64,000 nt of DNA. Source: Mesobacillus sp. AQ2 (GTDB lineage: Bacteria; Bacillota; Bacilli; Bacillales; Cytobacillaceae). The position numbers and the translations under genes are program-made. The stretch is taken from assembly GCF_030122805.1 (NCBI RefSeq), contig NZ_CP126080.1:2795001-2859000 (forward strand), written 5' to 3'. The notes below the pieces were generated by a model. That model worked only from the letters and a program-made list of their open reading frames with translations. It did not search any database and was not told the origin of the DNA. Below, piece after piece: positions 1,062-57,540 of the stretch (the first letter of the stretch is position 1; the number at the start of each line of letters is the position of its first letter).

Positions 1062-1300
1062 ATAAAAAACCCCCGCCTCTAAAAAGAGACGAGAGTTTTA
1101 TCCCGCGGTACCACTCTAATTGTTCCTGAAAGGAACCTGCTTTCATTGATAACGGAGTTCATTCCGGCCATCCCTAATGGTTTTCAGGAAGGCATCTCAA
1201 AAGTGCGCTTCATTACCCTATTTGCACCAGGCTTTCACCGTCCCCGGCTCGCTAACTCAAAAAAGGATAACTACTCTCTTTCTCATCGATTAGATATTTT
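1062..1300 (-). promoter_or_regulatory. T-box riboswitch leader of argS
   Basis: On the minus strand the core TGGTACCGCGGGA (complement of 1101-1113) is the universal T-box antiterminator bulge that pairs with uncharged tRNA NCCA. It is followed by a hairpin (about 1066-1097) and a run of T, the competing terminator, ending about 20 nt before argS. Upstream, Stem I hallmarks are visible: AGAGAGTAG near 1272-1280 and AGCGAGCCGGGGA followed by GGTGAAAGCC (about 1224-1253). A CGC triplet (complement of 1205-1207) followed by A is well placed on the 3' side of the specifier loop and would match an arginine tRNA. A plausible sigma-A promoter precedes it: TTGCAA (1329-1334) and TATAAC (1305-1310) with 18-bp spacing. 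Confidence 0.92.
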
Positions 1301-3458: not shown

Positions 3459-3927
3459 AATCTTCTTCTATTTCCCATGTATGTTCGAATTGTATACAGC
3501 CTTTTAATGTTTGTGCAACCGGACATCCTCTTTCGAAAACATTCAACGCCCTTTCGGCTGCTTCCCTTTTGCCAGTTGGAATCTTAAGTATATAGTGACA
3601 ACTGATTTTCGTTATTTTCAATACTCCTTCAGGTGCTTCAATTGTACCTTGTACCTGTGCCTTTACTTTATCGGGTGAAGTCGGTATTTTACGCGCCTCC
3701 AGCGCGCCTGATAGGGTGCCGACCAGTCAGCCCCCTGCAGCAGCAACGATGTGATCCAGGGTTGAAGGGTATTCCACTTTAGGATTGACACCGTAGAATT
3801 GTTTTACACCGCCGTGTACACCGAACAACAAAGGTTCCTGGAAACCATCAATGTAGGCTTCTCTAATTTTGTTGGGAGTATCTTTTTGAATTACCGTTAT
3901 TTTTGTTAAGGCAATTGGGTCAGACAA
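3457..3927 (-). CDS. OsmC/Ohr-family protein with in-frame UGA, predicted selenoprotein
   Basis: OsmC/Ohr proteins are thiol peroxidases that reduce organic hydroperoxides using a Cys pair. Reading from the TTG at 3927 (AAGGAGGG ribosome binding site, 9-nt spacing) through a UGA at 3727-3729 to the TAA at 3457-3459 gives one frame of 156 residues, the family's normal length. The UGA falls in AAAGG-U-LVGTLSGALEAR, exactly where the family has its first catalytic cysteine; the resolving cysteine is present in RGCPVAQTL. The predicted product is therefore a Sec peroxidase. A SECIS-like hairpin follows the UGA, and selB lies 8 kb away. A sigma-A-like promoter is TTGAAA (3982-3987) and TATGGT (3959-3964), 17-bp spacing. 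The alternative, a nonsense-mutated pseudogene, is disfavoured by the intact downstream frame. Standard gene callers would cut it at 3727. Confidence 0.85.
3680..3729 (-). promoter_or_regulatory. Bacterial SECIS-like element of the OsmC selenoprotein
   Basis: Beginning at the UGA (3729-3727, minus strand), an outer GTCGG/CCGAC pairing encloses a perfect hairpin CGCGC-TGGAG-GCGCG (3706-3692). The apical loop TGGAG puts GG at 27-28 nt after the UGA, within the distance range known for bSECIS elements read by SelB. Folding was done by eye. Confidence 0.7.
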
Positions 3928-4126
3928 TGAAACGATCCCTCCTTTTTTAGTTATTACAACCATAATAGAAAGATTAGTATTTTTCAAATAAAGTCCTTTG
4001 CATAAAAAAGGCAGCCCTTATTTTGATTCCTATGATACAAGCTGATGCTCGTCCGATAATTTTACATATGATGTTGTTGTAAGGTTCGGATCTTACCTAT
4101 CTTCTTTAAAGGAAGGGGGTGGGGAG

Positions 4127-8168: not shown

Positions 8169-9278
8169 TTATCCCATCACTGGAGATATCATCTGCAAAT
8201 GTTGTTTATCGCTGTTTGGCTTAATTACAACTGGTCTCATGGACCCAGAGAAACTCATCACAATTTCTTCGTCGGAAATTGATTTAAGAGCATCAATTAG
8301 AAAACTATTATTCAATGAAATCAAAATCTCCGGATTTCCTTCGAGTTCCCTGATAGGGATAGTCTCCTCTGTTCCCCCTAAATCTGAAGAATAGGAAGCA
8401 ACCATTAGTCTCCCTTCCGAAACACTCAATTTCACCTTGTTTCTGCTTGTGTCGCGAGTAAACAGGCTGGCACGGTCAATAGCATTCAATAACTTCCTGG
8501 TAGAAAGGATCATTGATGTTTTTGATTCTGATGGGATAATGCTTGAAAGGTCAGGATAGTTCCCCTCAATCAATCTTGAGTACAAGGATAAATCTTGTGA
8601 CTCGAAGACAAAGTAATTTTCTGATACATGGATTGTAACGGTACTATCATTGAAAAATCTTATGAATTCCCTTATTGAATTCAGTGGAATTATGTATGAA
8701 CCGGCAATAGGGGATTCAAAATCAAGTTCACTCATTGACAATCGATGAGAATTTGTGGCTGCACATCTTAGTTTGTTGTTCAGGAACGAAATCGATATCC
8801 CTGTAAGGACCTGGCGAGAATCCTTTACTGAAGCTGCGAATACAGTCTGTTTAACCATTTCGTGGAGGTGGTTTGCCTGCAGCTGGACGGTTTCATCGCT
8901 ATTCACTTTTGGCAATGATGGGTATTCATCAACATTGAGACCATTTAGCTGAATCTTTATCTCATCAGCCTTTATAATAAGTTTATTATTATCCCCTGTT
9001 TCCACCGTGATTTCACCAGGCAATTTTTTAATTAACTCTGCTAAATATTTAGCAGGTGCAACAAAGCTGCCCTTTTCAATGATTTCAAGGTTTCCCTCAT
9101 TACCAAACAGCTCTTTTTTCAGAAAAAAGTTATGATTGCTGACAATAAGAGTCAAACCTTCAGAATGGGCAACTACTTTAATGCCGCATAAAATTTGCGG
9201 AATAGGATTGGCCAAAACACTCCTGCTTAAATTCGATAGTGCTTCATAAAACAAGCCACTCTTAATGATAAATTTCAT
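8169..9278 (-). CDS. DNA polymerase III beta subunit (sliding clamp) paralogue
   Basis: Sliding clamps encircle DNA and tether polymerase. The 369-residue product aligns end to end with B. subtilis DnaN from memory: conserved blocks include LNGLNVDEYPSLP, VKQTVFAAS, LTGISISF, CAATNSHRLSMSELDF, YSRLIEGNYPDLSSIIP, LNAIDRASLF and the C-terminal SGSMRPVVIKP. The usual QLILPVR C-terminal strand that lines the partner-binding pocket is altered to QMISPVMG. It lies among methyltransferase and Nudix genes, not next to dnaA, so it is most likely a second clamp of the kind seen in some Bacillus genomes. Whether it loads on DNA is unknown. Confidence 0.9.
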   Translation of the reverse strand: MKFIIKSGLFYEALSNLSRSVLANPIPQILCGIKVVAHSEGLTLIVSNHNFFLKKELFGNEGNLEIIEKGSFVAPAKYLAELIKKLPGEITVETGDNNKLIIKADEIKIQLNGLNVDEYPSLPKVNSDETVQLQANHLHEMVKQTVFAASVKDSRQVLTGISISFLNNKLRCAATNSHRLSMSELDFESPIAGSYIIPLNSIREFIRFFNDSTVTIHVSENYFVFESQDLSLYSRLIEGNYPDLSSIIPSESKTSMILSTRKLLNAIDRASLFTRDTSRNKVKLSVSEGRLMVASYSSDLGGTEETIPIRELEGNPEILISLNNSFLIDALKSISDEEIVMSFSGSMRPVVIKPNSDKQHLQMISPVMG

Positions 9279-9384: not shown

Positions 9385-9989
9385 CAATTTGCATTTTTTT
9401 TGATGATAACCTGAATAACATGACCGGTGCCTGTGTGCAATTCACCTTCCACTCTTTCCTGTTCTCCATAAAAGAAATGAAGTACTTTGTAGCCTTTAAT
9501 CCATTCTAAAACATCAGATGGATCGTAAAGCATCTCAACCGTCTTAGGTCCGCCTGTTCCGTATTTGACCTGGTCTTCTGAATATACCTCGAACATGATG
9601 GTGCCCCCCGGCTTGACAGTTGAAATCAATTTATCCATCACGGTTTTTTGATCATCTTTACTAAAATGACCAAATACCATAAAGGCTGCATCGAATTCTT
9701 CAGCAGGTACCCCATCATGTATTAAATTCTTTAGTTCCGTTGAGATTTTCACTTTATGCCGCTCCGCCAATGCATTCGTCTTATTCAAACCATTTTCTGC
9801 ATAATCATAAGCCGTAACTATATGCCCCTGCAGTGCAAGATAAACCGCATTCCGGCCTTCTCCTTCAGCAAACGCCACGATTTTACTTCCTTTTCCTAAT
9901 CTGTGTGCTTGTTCTTTTATGAATTGATTTGGTTCTTCACCATATACATACTGTTCGGTACCAAAACGTTCATGCCACGAATTTCCCAT
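9384..9989 (-). CDS. Class I SAM methyltransferase, TehB/thiopurine-methyltransferase-like
   Basis: A 201-residue protein starting MGNSWHERFGTEQYVYGEEPN, the W..R(Y/F)G....YG..PN opening typical of TehB-like methyltransferases. Motif I is degenerate (KIVAFAEGEGRNAVYLA), the common form in this group, followed by VTAYDYAENGLNK and VKPGGTIMFEVYS. Members methylate tellurite, selenite or thiol compounds; a selenium-detoxifying role would suit a Sec-using organism but is only speculation. Divergent from the thioredoxin selenoprotein gene at 10102. Confidence 0.85.
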   Translation of the reverse strand: MGNSWHERFGTEQYVYGEEPNQFIKEQAHRLGKGSKIVAFAEGEGRNAVYLALQGHIVTAYDYAENGLNKTNALAERHKVKISTELKNLIHDGVPAEEFDAAFMVFGHFSKDDQKTVMDKLISTVKPGGTIMFEVYSEDQVKYGTGGPKTVEMLYDPSDVLEWIKGYKVLHFFYGEQERVEGELHTGTGHVIQVIIKKNAN

Positions 9990-10101
9990 ACGATCACTCC
10001 TTCCTAATCATTATACCCATTACCCTTTTTTTAGTATGATAAAAGTTCAGGTGGCTATTCTATTTTTAAGTGGGTATCAGTAACGAAAGGAGCTGAATTA
10101 A

Positions 10102-10431
10102 ATGAAAGAATTAACATCAATTGATGAAGTAAAAAGTTTAATCAATGATAACGAATTAAGTTTTATTTATGTCTTGACCGATGGTTGAAGTGTCTGTCAC
10201 GGATTGCTTCCTCAGGTCGAGGAAGTTTTGAAAGATTTCCCTAAAATCGAGACTGGGCTGGTCAATGCCGGGAAGGTCGAAGAAATAGCGGGATTCCTTA
10301 TGGCGTTTACAGTACCCGTTTTAGTCTTGTATGCAGATGGACGAGAGTATTTAAGAGAGGCAAGAATCGTCCAGGTTGAGAAACTCAGGGAAGACGTCTC
10401 CAGGATTTATGAAGGATTCTTTGGAGAATAA
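10102..10431 (+). CDS. Thioredoxin-fold protein with in-frame UGA (U-x-x-C), predicted selenoprotein
   Basis: Thioredoxins reduce protein disulfides with a CxxC motif. ATG at 10102 has AAAGGAG nine nt upstream; the frame runs through UGA at 10186-10188 to TAA at 10431, giving 109 residues, the normal thioredoxin length. The UGA is residue 29 in FIYVLTDG-U-SVCHGLLPQVEE, replacing the first Cys of the redox motif; the second Cys (SVC) is intact, and the cis-proline loop is seen as FTVPVLVLY. So the active site would be Sec-Ser-Val-Cys. A perfect hairpin with a GG loop follows the UGA. Read as one gene, start signal, fold and length all fit; read as two pieces, neither does. Monocistronic, with its own terminator; the nearby selB supports decoding. 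Confidence 0.88.
10186..10227 (+). promoter_or_regulatory. Bacterial SECIS-like element of the thioredoxin selenoprotein
   Basis: The UGA at 10186 is followed by a perfect 7-bp stem CTTCCTC (10207-10213) and GAGGAAG (10219-10225) with loop AGGTC. The GG of the loop is 27-28 nt after the UGA, the same spacing as in the OsmC gene, and the loop sequence has the GGU seen in the E. coli fdhF SECIS. Confidence 0.75.
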
Positions 10432-10435
10432 TTGG

Positions 10436-10465
10436 GGGGCTTGGTTAATCCAAGCTCTCGTTTTT
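10436..10465 (+). terminator. Terminator of the thioredoxin selenoprotein gene
   Basis: GGGCTTGG, loop TTAAT, CCAAGCTC followed by a T-rich tract, starting 5 nt after the stop codon. Confidence 0.75.
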
Positions 10466-10475
10466 CTTTTATATT

Positions 10476-10747
10476 GGCTCTGTTAAACAAGACTGTTGAT
10501 TTTCGTTCCAGGCGCTTCGCTTTCCGCTGGAAGAATATTAAAAAACCAACTGCCGTCTTTTTCATAAGCAATTCTTCCTTGGGGCTGGCGCTGAGCCTCC
10601 TCGTCGCTTTGCTCCTGTGGGGTGCAAATGATTCCTCACGTGAATCATTTCACCTAGGTCTCACCTGTCCAGCTGCGCCCGCATGAGTCTTCGCGCCTTC
10701 CCCTACAATCAACAGGTGTAAAAACAACATTGAGCTTTAACAGAGCC
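10476..10747. mobile_element. MITE-like element, 272 bp, no coding capacity
   Basis: Perfect 12-bp terminal inverted repeats GGCTCTGTTAAA (10476-10487) and TTTAACAGAGCC (10736-10747). The flanks carry a direct repeat TTATATT on each side (10469-10475 and 10748-10754), a 7-bp target duplication, though AT-rich. Inside there is a second inverted pair, CTGTTGATT near 10492 and AATCAACAG near 10707. No transposase frame is present, so it would need a partner in trans. The GGCTCT tip resembles ISL3-family ends as I remember them (those make 8-bp duplications). It sits just after the terminator of the thioredoxin gene. From 10755 to 11015 I see no gene; only AT-rich DNA and the DUF3231 ribosome binding site. 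Confidence 0.75.
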
Positions 10748-11015
10748 TTATATTAAGGGTATTTTTCGTTAAGATCCATCAATTATGAAATATAATAACT
10801 TTATATTTCAACTTGGGAGGAAATCTTGCACCGATACCTACAATTTGTCTGAACACGATACCGATTTCGATAAATTCTGTGTTTTAATCCTCTCACTCCC
10901 AATCCGATATTCCCTTCTATCTCCTCTAAATATTAATCTTAGGTTAATGCATGAATTGTTCTCTTTTAAACAAAATAAGCCTTGTTGACAATTTCCTTTC
11001 CTAAGGAGAAACAAA

Positions 11016-11552
11016 ATGAATATAAACACAATAAGGAGTGCGGTTATGGGAATTTTAAGCGGAAATCCAAAAGATGAACCTATGCATTATGGTGAGGTAT
11101 ATGGGGCCTGGACTCATTTATCAGTCAATCATGGTCTGATCGCTGCATACCAGACCTTTATCAATCACATTGGTGATGAGGATCTTAAAAAGCTTGTCCA
11201 AGAAGCAATTGAGGCGATGCAGGAAGAAAATAAGCAGGTTGAAGAACTGCTAAAAACGAATGGCATCGGGCTCCCTCCATCTTCACCTGAACGTCCTGTT
11301 GCCCATCTGGAAGATATTCCTCCTGGAGCAAGATTCAGTGACCCTGAAATTTCGGCGGCAGTCTCAAAGGATGTTGCAGAAGGTCTGATTGCCGCGAGTA
11401 CTATGATCGGCCAGTCCATCAGAGAAGATATCGCGATGATGTACGGCCAATTCCATATGGCAAAGGCACAATTTGGCGCTAAAATGCTAAAGTTAAACAA
11501 AACAAAAGGCTGGCTGATTCCTCCTCCACTACAGGTAAAATCTACCGAGTAA
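11016..11552 (+). CDS. DUF3231 family protein
   Basis: A 178-residue protein with a TAAGGAG ribosome binding site 8 nt before the ATG. Alpha-helical, with the segments HYGEVYGAWTHLSVNHGLIAAYQTF, EDLKKLVQEAIEAMQEE and the central LPPSSPERP linker that I associate with DUF3231 proteins, which form paired four-helix bundles and are abundant in spore-forming Bacilli; a link to sporulation (CotF-like fold) is suggested in the family but not shown here. No transmembrane segment. Confidence 0.75.
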   Translation: MNINTIRSAVMGILSGNPKDEPMHYGEVYGAWTHLSVNHGLIAAYQTFINHIGDEDLKKLVQEAIEAMQEENKQVEELLKTNGIGLPPSSPERPVAHLEDIPPGARFSDPEISAAVSKDVAEGLIAASTMIGQSIREDIAMMYGQFHMAKAQFGAKMLKLNKTKGWLIPPPLQVKSTE

Positions 11553-11626: not shown

Positions 11627-13513
11627 TTAACTTTTTCTCCAAACCCTTTTGTTCTCGATCCTTCTCGTGTATCCAAGTGCATCGAGACGTTCAAGGAATG
11701 GAATCATATACTTACGTGATAACTCCACTGCTTCTTTTGCCTGTGAGACTTCAAATTCATCTCCCGTTTGCTCTTTCAGCTTACTCACTGCATCAGCAAA
11801 ATGTTCTCCATACCAGGCGTATTGGTCATCCAGCATAACAATAACTTCCTGGTCTTCGAGGAAGCGTTTTAGTTCAAAGGAGATAGAGTCAGGTATGCCT
11901 GCATTTTTAATATAGTCATGCAAATAAGCAACCTTTAAGCCGTCTTTCTTCAGCTCGTTGATCAGATTCTCTGTCCGTTTTTCCCAGTTTTTCGGGACAT
12001 GCGGAACAAATGCTGCAAGCGAGATATATTGTTCTTTTCTCATGAATAACCCCTTGCTGATTCCATTTTCGATTATGAATTCCAGCAACGTTTTAGAAAA
12101 AGATTTTTGCAGTGTTTGCAACAATTCAGCTTTATTCATGCCAGGACGCATTGGGCTTTCCTCGTGATAATCTTCCAATCGATCCATGATATCTTCTTCG
12201 ATAAGGTCAATGATTGATGTCAGGGCATATTCTTTATTTGATACTTTGACAAACTGGTCATCTTTTAGATTGGATAAAATAGATCCCTCATCAAGCGCTG
12301 TCCGCTTAATCAGCTCTTCGACCGTCAGGCTTTTTGCTTCATATAAGGCAGCGTTCATTCTTTCAATCGGTGTTCCAGCTTTCTTTTTTTCCAACTCCTC
12401 AATTGTCTGCTGTCCAAATCGATACTTGTTTCCACGTGGGTCGATTACCCAACCGCCACCAATTGTCTCCTGCGGACTTGGCCTGCGAACAATGAACCGG
12501 TCTCCTCGTTTAGTGACGATTTTTTCATCAAGGCGCAGCTGGCAAAGAATCTCCCCATTCTCTTCTTTTAGTTCGTTTCTGTCAAAAAAGACAATCCGTC
12601 CCATTACTTCGGCCGTACCGATATGGCACTTTATTGGCGTCCTTTGTTTTACCAGGTGGTCAAGGTCCTCAACGACTCTGATTGCGACGTCAATTGTATT
12701 GGTAACGATAAAATGCTCAGAAGAAACCAGCACCTCACCCCGTTCAAGCTCGTCCCTCGATACCCCTGAAAGATTAATGGCAGCCCGCTGACCCGCGAAC
12801 GCTTTTTTGGCAGGCTGATGATGTACCTGAAGCTGTCGTGCCCTTACTTCATGCCCTGATGGCAAGACTTTTAATTGCTGCCCTTCTTCAACCGTCCCCT
12901 CGTAAACAGTGCCTCTGACAACGGTGCCCTGGCCTTTTACCGAAAATACCTGGTCGATGGGCAGACGGAAAGCTCCCTTTACATCACGCATTTCCTGTTC
13001 TTTCAGCGTACCAATAATCAGTTCTTTCAGTTCGATGATTCCTTTTTTAGATAGGCTATCGACCATCATAAAAGGTGCATTTTCAAAAACGGTCCCTTTA
13101 AGCTCGCCAAGAATGTCGTCTTTCACAAGTTCGATGAAATCCTCTTCCACCCTGTCAATCTTTGTGATTGCAATAATTCCTGAACGAATCCCCAGAAATC
13201 CAAGAATGTCCAGATGCTCACGAGTTTGCGGCATGACCCCTTCATCGGCAGCGACAACAAGAACGACAAGATCAATCCCAGCTACACCGGCGATCATCTG
13301 GCGGATAAAGCGCTCATGTCCCGGTACGTCCACCACCGAAATTTGCAGTTCTTCATCTTCATATAGTGGCGCAAAGCCCAGTTCAATCGAAATTTGCCGT
13401 TCTTTTTCTTCTTTCAGGCGGTCAGTGTCCACATTTGTCAACGCCTTGGTCAACGACGTTTTCCCGTGATCAATATGACCTGCCATCCCGATGGTAAAAT
13501 ACCTCTTGCTCAA
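11627..13513 (-). CDS. selB: Selenocysteine-specific translation elongation factor SelB
   Basis: SelB replaces EF-Tu for Sec-tRNA and delivers it to UGA codons marked by a SECIS hairpin. The 628-residue product has the full length of SelB. N-terminal EF-Tu-like GTPase motifs: GHIDHGKTSLTKAL (G1), DVPGHERFIRQM (G3) and TKID (G4), with the SelB-type switch sequence DTDRLKEEKERQISIELGFA. Domains 2 and 3 follow (to about residue 350), then about 270 residues of winged-helix repeats that bind the SECIS, ending near VSQAKEAVELSRKYMIPFLERLD. The start is a TTG at 13513 with a GAAGGTG ribosome binding site. selA and selC, which often neighbour it, are not here. Its presence is the key support for the two UGA genes at 3457 and 10102. 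Confidence 0.95.
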   Translation of the reverse strand: MSKRYFTIGMAGHIDHGKTSLTKALTNVDTDRLKEEKERQISIELGFAPLYEDEELQISVVDVPGHERFIRQMIAGVAGIDLVVLVVAADEGVMPQTREHLDILGFLGIRSGIIAITKIDRVEEDFIELVKDDILGELKGTVFENAPFMMVDSLSKKGIIELKELIIGTLKEQEMRDVKGAFRLPIDQVFSVKGQGTVVRGTVYEGTVEEGQQLKVLPSGHEVRARQLQVHHQPAKKAFAGQRAAINLSGVSRDELERGEVLVSSEHFIVTNTIDVAIRVVEDLDHLVKQRTPIKCHIGTAEVMGRIVFFDRNELKEENGEILCQLRLDEKIVTKRGDRFIVRRPSPQETIGGGWVIDPRGNKYRFGQQTIEELEKKKAGTPIERMNAALYEAKSLTVEELIKRTALDEGSILSNLKDDQFVKVSNKEYALTSIIDLIEEDIMDRLEDYHEESPMRPGMNKAELLQTLQKSFSKTLLEFIIENGISKGLFMRKEQYISLAAFVPHVPKNWEKRTENLINELKKDGLKVAYLHDYIKNAGIPDSISFELKRFLEDQEVIVMLDDQYAWYGEHFADAVSKLKEQTGDEFEVSQAKEAVELSRKYMIPFLERLDALGYTRRIENKRVWRKS

Positions 13514-57384: not shown

Positions 57385-57415
57385 AATTTTGGAAACAACA
57401 ACTGCATAGATTTTT

Positions 57416-57500
57416 GCACTAGGGGAGCTTTTTGCTGAGAAGAACTTTGTTCTGACCCTTATTACTCGATCTGGATAATACCAGCGTGGGGAAGTGCGGG
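57416..57500 (+). promoter_or_regulatory. TPP riboswitch (THI element)
   Basis: The conserved TPP aptamer pieces are in order: GCACTAGGGGAGC, TTTGCTGAGAA, GACCCTTATT, CTGGATAATACCAGCGTGGG and GAAGTGCGGG. Binding of thiamine pyrophosphate should favour the terminator at 57543-57575 and switch off ykoFEDC. Confidence 0.95.
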
Positions 57501-57540
57501 AGAAACTCATCGTTCCCCTTTTTTATAAGCGATAGTATTC

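Follow-up and report, generated by a model that had tools for sequence, protein, structure and literature searches.

The canonical thioredoxin active site reads W-C-G-P-C, and thioredoxin-fold proteins carrying selenocysteine (Sec, U) in a UxxC site are expected to exchange disulfides, with Sec as the attacking residue and the second Cys as the resolving one. The Sec-containing thioredoxin (Trx, PF00085, UxxC) already figured as a known selenoprotein family in papers of 2005 and 2006 (PMC1088965; PMC1794560), and is listed as experimentally verified in Table 1 of a 2026 inventory (PMC13188914). The same table holds two further thioredoxin-like UxxC proteins, SaoT (NF040730) and a HUIPC-motif selenoprotein (NF047660). 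For the Bacillales, Table 2 of a 2006 survey counted three selenoproteins (PMC1794560). The bacterial SECIS element, as outlined in PMC1088965, is a hairpin just downstream of the UGA whose small apical loop contains a conserved G.

The locus analysed here lies in a 64,000-nucleotide stretch of DNA from Mesobacillus sp. AQ2 (the whole of which is called the window). Its product shares with the Sec-containing Trx a predicted thioredoxin fold, the replacement of the first redox Cys by a putative Sec and the retention of the second Cys, but differs in its G-U-S-V-C-H active site, in a PF00085 score below the gathering cut-off and in a C-terminal G-x-E-x-x-R-x-x-R signature. With SaoT and the HUIPC-motif protein it has in common the thioredoxin-like character and the UxxC site; neither NF040730 nor NF047660 matched the window protein at E values up to 0.01, nor was either among the nine families matched by 41 aligned members of its family at E up to 0.001. 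Sec thioredoxins being already known, the window protein, of a thioredoxin-like subfamily, adds to that known kind, and it brings a well-supported thioredoxin-like selenoprotein to the relatives of Bacillus. No description of the subfamily was recognised in full-text literature searches, as judged from titles and abstract openings among the matches listed, which is no proof of absence from print, nor in the passages that term searches returned from PMC13188914, PMC9312934, PMC1088965 and PMC1794560, a term search of PMC12013277 giving no passage.

A thioredoxin-like frame interrupted by UGA

The frame runs from ATG to TAA on the forward strand with exactly one in-frame TGA, at residue 29 (Table 1), which confirms the observation made in the initial annotation of a 109-residue thioredoxin-like frame with UGA at the first Cys position of a U-S-V-C pair. 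With the UGA read as Sec the active-site motif becomes G-U-S-V-C-H and the redox pair U29-S-V-C32. Under translation table 11 the frame falls apart into a 28-residue ORF (10102-10188) and a 75-residue ORF from the TTG at 10204, so that calling the latter alone does hide the gene, as had been warned; the locus illustrates how standard gene calling cuts a selenoprotein gene in two at its UGA. The good ribosome-binding site that had been claimed is present as AAAGGAG. The claim that the gene has its own terminator held in part: a hairpin with a T-rich tail does start 3 nt past the stop codon, but this was a single site where 1.0 was expected in shuffled sequence and so is not significant by itself. 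A promoter scan found no sigma-70-like promoter in 9900-10600.

Table 1. Features of the thioredoxin-like gene and its vicinity, in window coordinates.
Feature	Position	Strand	Remark
Sec-containing thioredoxin-like protein gene (predicted)	10102..10431	+	109 aa + TAA, UGA read as Sec
Ribosome-binding site AAAGGAG	10086..10092	+	9 nt upstream of ATG, read from the sequence
UGA, putative Sec codon (U29), first position of redox pair U-S-V-C	10186..10188	+	aligned with UGA (50) or a Cys codon (55) in 105 homologous loci
Putative resolving Cys codon, C32 (second of pair)	10195..10197	+	invariant in 41 aligned homologues; Gly in the later-fetched L232
SECIS-like hairpin	10206..10226	+	8-pair stem, 10206-10213 with 10219-10226; loop AGGUC 10214-10218
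Codon of P72, likely cis-Pro facing the redox pair	10315..10317	+	invariant in 41/41; role suggested by the thioredoxin fold
Intrinsic-terminator-like hairpin, then T-rich tail	10435..10459	+	1 site found, 1.0 expected in shuffles
DUF3231 gene, between the thioredoxin-like gene and selB	11016-11552	+	
selB, selenocysteine-specific elongation factor	11627..13513	-	TIGR00475, 362 bits against a cut-off of 242.25

A structure model built with 30 Cys homologues, taken from the listed Cys loci of named relatives described below, reached a mean pLDDT of 92.5, and Foldseek returned thioredoxins and designs on that fold, with TM values (query length) of 0.76-0.89 among the 50 matches listed. The product is confidently modelled as having the thioredoxin fold, and its CxxC-type site opens a helix, as is typical of the superfamily. 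The closest solved structure by sequence was PDB 4euy, deposited as an uncharacterised protein (family-profile E value 2.6e-30), which was absent among the 50 Foldseek matches listed. Residues C/U29, V31, C32, P72, G80, E82, R85 and R88 were invariant across the 41 aligned homologues, all of which carried CxxC or UxxC, and P72 is likely the cis-Pro opposite the redox pair. The Pfam Thioredoxin model PF00085, matched by 40 of the 41 aligned members at E up to 0.001, gave the window protein 19.8 bits against a gathering cut-off of 23.5; the canonical TrxA models gave 21.7 against 96.8 bits (TIGR01068) and 25 against 140 bits (NF047697), and in the NCBIfam profile search the window protein reached no cut-off. 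Because these scores fell short whilst the families matched most often by the aligned members were thioredoxins and their relatives, we place the protein in a thioredoxin-like subfamily.

UGA and Cys codons among homologues and the Sec machinery

Homologues were sought in 299 related genomes, including that of the window, and matches at E values up to 1e-8 were found in 103 of them, giving 105 loci that were aligned one by one to the window protein. Residue 29 was encoded by UGA at 50 loci and by a Cys codon at the other 55, always at the same aligned residue, so the alignment with Cys homologues that the initial annotation had proposed, and its view that a chance nonsense mutation was unlikely, were both borne out. 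An in-frame UGA where homologues have Cys is a mark of bacterial selenoproteins, seen here in a comparison of 105 loci. All 19 of the other sampled members of the genus had the UGA form. No other stop interrupted the aligned stretch at 48 of the 50 UGA loci; the two exceptions (L031 and L028) contain a further TAA near the C-terminus, in L028 with an apparent frameshift.

The UGA form co-occurs with selA, which was found in 218 of the 299 genomes. UGA occupied residue 29 at 50 of the 75 loci in genomes with selA and at none of the 30 loci (28 genomes) in which selA was not detected; the Cys loci divide accordingly into 25 with and 30 without detected selA. Together with the UGA gene, these Cys counterparts lend themselves to a comparison of a thioredoxin-like enzyme with and without selenium. 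A true stop in relatives lacking Sec had been named as an outcome that would speak against the selenoprotein reading, and none was seen, all 30 of these loci carrying Cys. selB was detected in 49 of the 50 genomes with the UGA form, the exception (G010) being 66% complete. When the sampling was widened to 397 genomes of the order, three more UGA homologues came to light in two other families (in genomes G551, G527 and G488), 46-55% identical and each accompanied by selA. One of them (L232, in G488, with its TGA at 385) is a natural homologue reading U-S-V-G, which has lost the second Cys and kept the UGA and the hairpin. On a poorly resolved tree of 104 rows and 108 columns at least two changes between Sec and Cys labels were required, the average with shuffled labels being 35; the UGA loci are therefore clustered and do not amount to 50 independent events. 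As a side observation, one related genome (G159) gave two matches each for selA and selB.

Cys counterparts were also collected in a search whose pattern required Cys and could not detect UGA forms; it found 254 relatives, of which 79 loci were listed, 41-56% identical to the window protein. These proteins, from Bacillus velezensis, Bacillus timonensis, Anoxybacillus, Oceanobacillus and Virgibacillus among others, with PDB 4euy grouped alongside, have the same length and a C-[SG]-V-C motif, with a Cys codon where the window gene has UGA.

The genome itself (one contig of 4.80 Mb, estimated as 100% complete) encodes selA, selB, selC and selD, as expected of a bacterium that makes selenoproteins. 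The search for tRNA-Sec suggested at the outset detected selC, whose absence had been named as refuting the selenoprotein reading, at 56.1 bits against an Rfam gathering score of 47, with 14 weaker matches falling below it, and ARAGORN called the best match tRNA-SeC with anticodon tca. selA scored 567.6 bits, selD carries its own UGA in a UGCK motif, and selB lies within the window, 1.2 kb from the thioredoxin-like gene on the opposite strand. Two formate dehydrogenase genes of the genome have UGA in a UH (UGA-His) motif, followed by a hairpin with the loop GGUCU, and the hairpin of the SelD gene is tipped by GGUU. These two formate dehydrogenase alpha matches, at G000:C1:2864274-2866295 (-) and G000:C1:4683046-4683798 (-) (L221 and L225), are further selenoprotein candidates outside the window.

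It is conceivable that the UGA acts as a selenium-dependent switch, low selenium giving the 28-residue peptide and the 75-residue protein from TTG 10204, with the full-length protein a side product. Both short ORFs do exist in the sequence, but the shorter protein would go without the first strands and helix and both redox residues, and nearly every homologue aligns over the full-length frame, Cys forms with no stop to switch at among them; we regard such a switch as very improbable.

A SECIS-like hairpin under RNA-level constraint

Downstream of the UGA, inside the coding region, the sequence forms the hairpin CUUCCUC-AGGUC-GAGGAAG, which begins 17-18 nt after the UGA and has the small apical loop with a conserved G of a bacterial SECIS. 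A 50-nt segment starting at the UGA folds into this eight-pair hairpin, with an unexceptional z of -1.15 against shuffles. The loop AGGTN (AGGUN) was found in all 50 UGA genes and in 13 of the 55 Cys genes. Each of the eight stem pairs was retained in 45-50 of the 50 UGA genes, and the mean folding energy of the 25-nt hairpin segment was -11.0 kcal/mol in UGA genes and -2.3 kcal/mol in Cys genes. Some UGA genes have an imperfect stem, as in L059 with 5 of 8 pairs.

Within the UGA genes no stem pair had changed on both sides and three of the eight pairs never varied. Since the stem hardly varies, covariation is uninformative, and synonymous diversity was therefore used instead, with the Cys genes as a control. 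At codons 36-41 the pairwise fraction of synonymous differences among UGA genes was 0.13 against 0.50 elsewhere, the lowest of any six-codon window scored, whilst for the same codons in Cys genes it was 0.58 against 0.57 elsewhere, ranking 58th of 101 windows. The hairpin is thus constrained at the RNA level in UGA genes only, which we consider the best evidence for an RNA signal; the Cys genes of this comparison are those among the 105 loci of related genomes, the loci of the named species lying outside it.

A covariance model was built from 46 distinct UGA sequences, that of the window included. Scanned over the window, it scored the thioredoxin-like site at 72.2 bits, the sole place above noise, with the next at 7.9 bits, and it recovered the hairpin at 48-54 bits in the three UGA homologues outside the model (G551, G527 and G488). 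When 12 of the 56 Cys homologue loci were scanned, one had no hit and the other 11 scored 11-32 bits. The highest of these scores (L081, 31.9 bits; L096, 29.8 bits) might hint at a fossil SECIS, but part of the stem is already favoured by the P-Q-V-E-E motif of the protein, and no selA was detected in the genome of L096. A comparable hairpin was defined as a stem of at least seven pairs and a loop of 4-6 nt containing GGT, beginning at a distance of 18-37 nt counted from the first base of the TGA. Counting both strands, the window has 2835 TGA triplets, and 8 of them, that at 10186 included, came with such a hairpin, a measure of how often one arises by chance.

UGA is in general a leaky stop codon, and near-cognate readthrough might insert another amino acid such as Trp or Cys at residue 29, the hairpin being merely a generic stimulator. 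Against this, the UGA is confined among homologues to the residue that is Cys in the others and to genomes that have selA, and the GGU-tipped hairpin resembles those of the formate dehydrogenase and SelD genes of the same genome, which leaves this explanation little room. Least credible of all is a nonsense mutation or sequencing error in a decaying Cys gene, for although one substitution turns TGT or TGC into TGA, which the standard table takes as a stop, the UGA is kept at 50 loci in 50 genomes (48 of these loci having no further stop where they align) as well as in three homologues from other families, is absent from all 30 loci whose genomes gave no selA match, and precedes a hairpin under synonymous constraint in UGA genes only.

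Proposed mechanism and genomic surroundings

The selenoprotein reading of the UGA at 10186 put forward in the initial annotation is strongly supported, and we estimate a probability of about 0.93 that 10102-10431 encodes a small thioredoxin-fold thiol/selenol-disulfide oxidoreductase in which this codon is decoded as Sec. We counted in its favour the complete set of sel genes, the restriction of UGA to loci of genomes with selA, the hairpin and its synonymous constraint, the predicted fold, and the loops of the formate dehydrogenase and SelD genes. Weighed against it were the lack of two-sided stem changes, the unexceptional z, the imperfect stems, the GGA loop of an OsmC-like gene (see below), the Pfam score below gathering, the clustering of UGA loci on the tree, the lack of a gene partner, the extra TAA codons (L031, L028) and the U-S-V-G homologue (L232). 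On general knowledge of such proteins, SelB carrying Sec-tRNA(Sec) with anticodon UCA would bind the GGU-loop hairpin inside the coding region and the ribosome would read UGA 10186 as Sec. Sec29, which opens the first long helix, might then attack a client at its disulfides or at sulfur in another oxidised form, with C32 resolving the mixed selenosulfide and the U-S-V-C pair being returned to its reduced state, thioredoxin reductase or bacillithiol being the probable cellular reductant.

A broader history for the family can be offered tentatively, and we rather doubt it: in this thioredoxin-like redox family of Bacillus relatives Sec and Cys would have replaced one another on more than one occasion, with the SECIS tied to the L-P-Q-V-E-E motif of the protein. 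The hairpin of some Cys forms would be a decaying remnant of a Sec state since lost, and at least one member (U-S-V-G) would dispense with the second Cys. If true, the family could show the stepwise gain, loss and re-use of Sec within one order.

For the gene neighbourhood, ORFs of 99 loci (20 larger stretches from relatives and the 79 listed Cys loci) were clustered, and among these no conserved gene partner pointing to a client was found. The four most frequent neighbour clusters, present at 24-49 loci, lay mostly or wholly on the opposite strand; one of the four resembles, on visual inspection, an ABC transporter ATPase. A plasmid search with the thioredoxin-like gene region gave no match.

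That the window holds another gene with UGA at a redox position had also been claimed, and an OsmC-like gene with UGA at residue 87 is indeed present at 3460-3987 on the minus strand. Its motif U-L-V-G-T reads, presumably, as that of the OsmC-like selenoprotein kind, and we treat it as the second selenoprotein candidate of the window, with the same Sec machinery at its disposal. Its predicted hairpin loop is GGA and not GGU, so the GGU tip is not shared by all such hairpins of the genome. Matches to the OsmC-like gene came from 31 out of 121 related genomes; of the 33 stretches matched, 29 contained a TGA at some position, and several had TAA or TAG as well. The described OsmC-like selenoprotein (UxxT), to which the gene is likened from the entries in PMC1088965 and PMC13188914, is unrelated to the thioredoxin-like protein.

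Just after the thioredoxin-like gene, at 10476-10752, lies a repeat of about 277 bp with inverted ends GGCTCTGTTAAA ... TTTAACAGAGCC; its 73 matching segments in the genome suggest that it is probably a dispersed repeat or a non-autonomous mobile element. Elsewhere in the window, a DnaN-like sliding-clamp gene at 8169-9278 (-) (TIGR00663, 258.8 bits) is flanked by two methyltransferase genes, and a T-box leader at 1082-1295 (-) and a TPP riboswitch at 57411-57509 (+) scored above their gathering scores.
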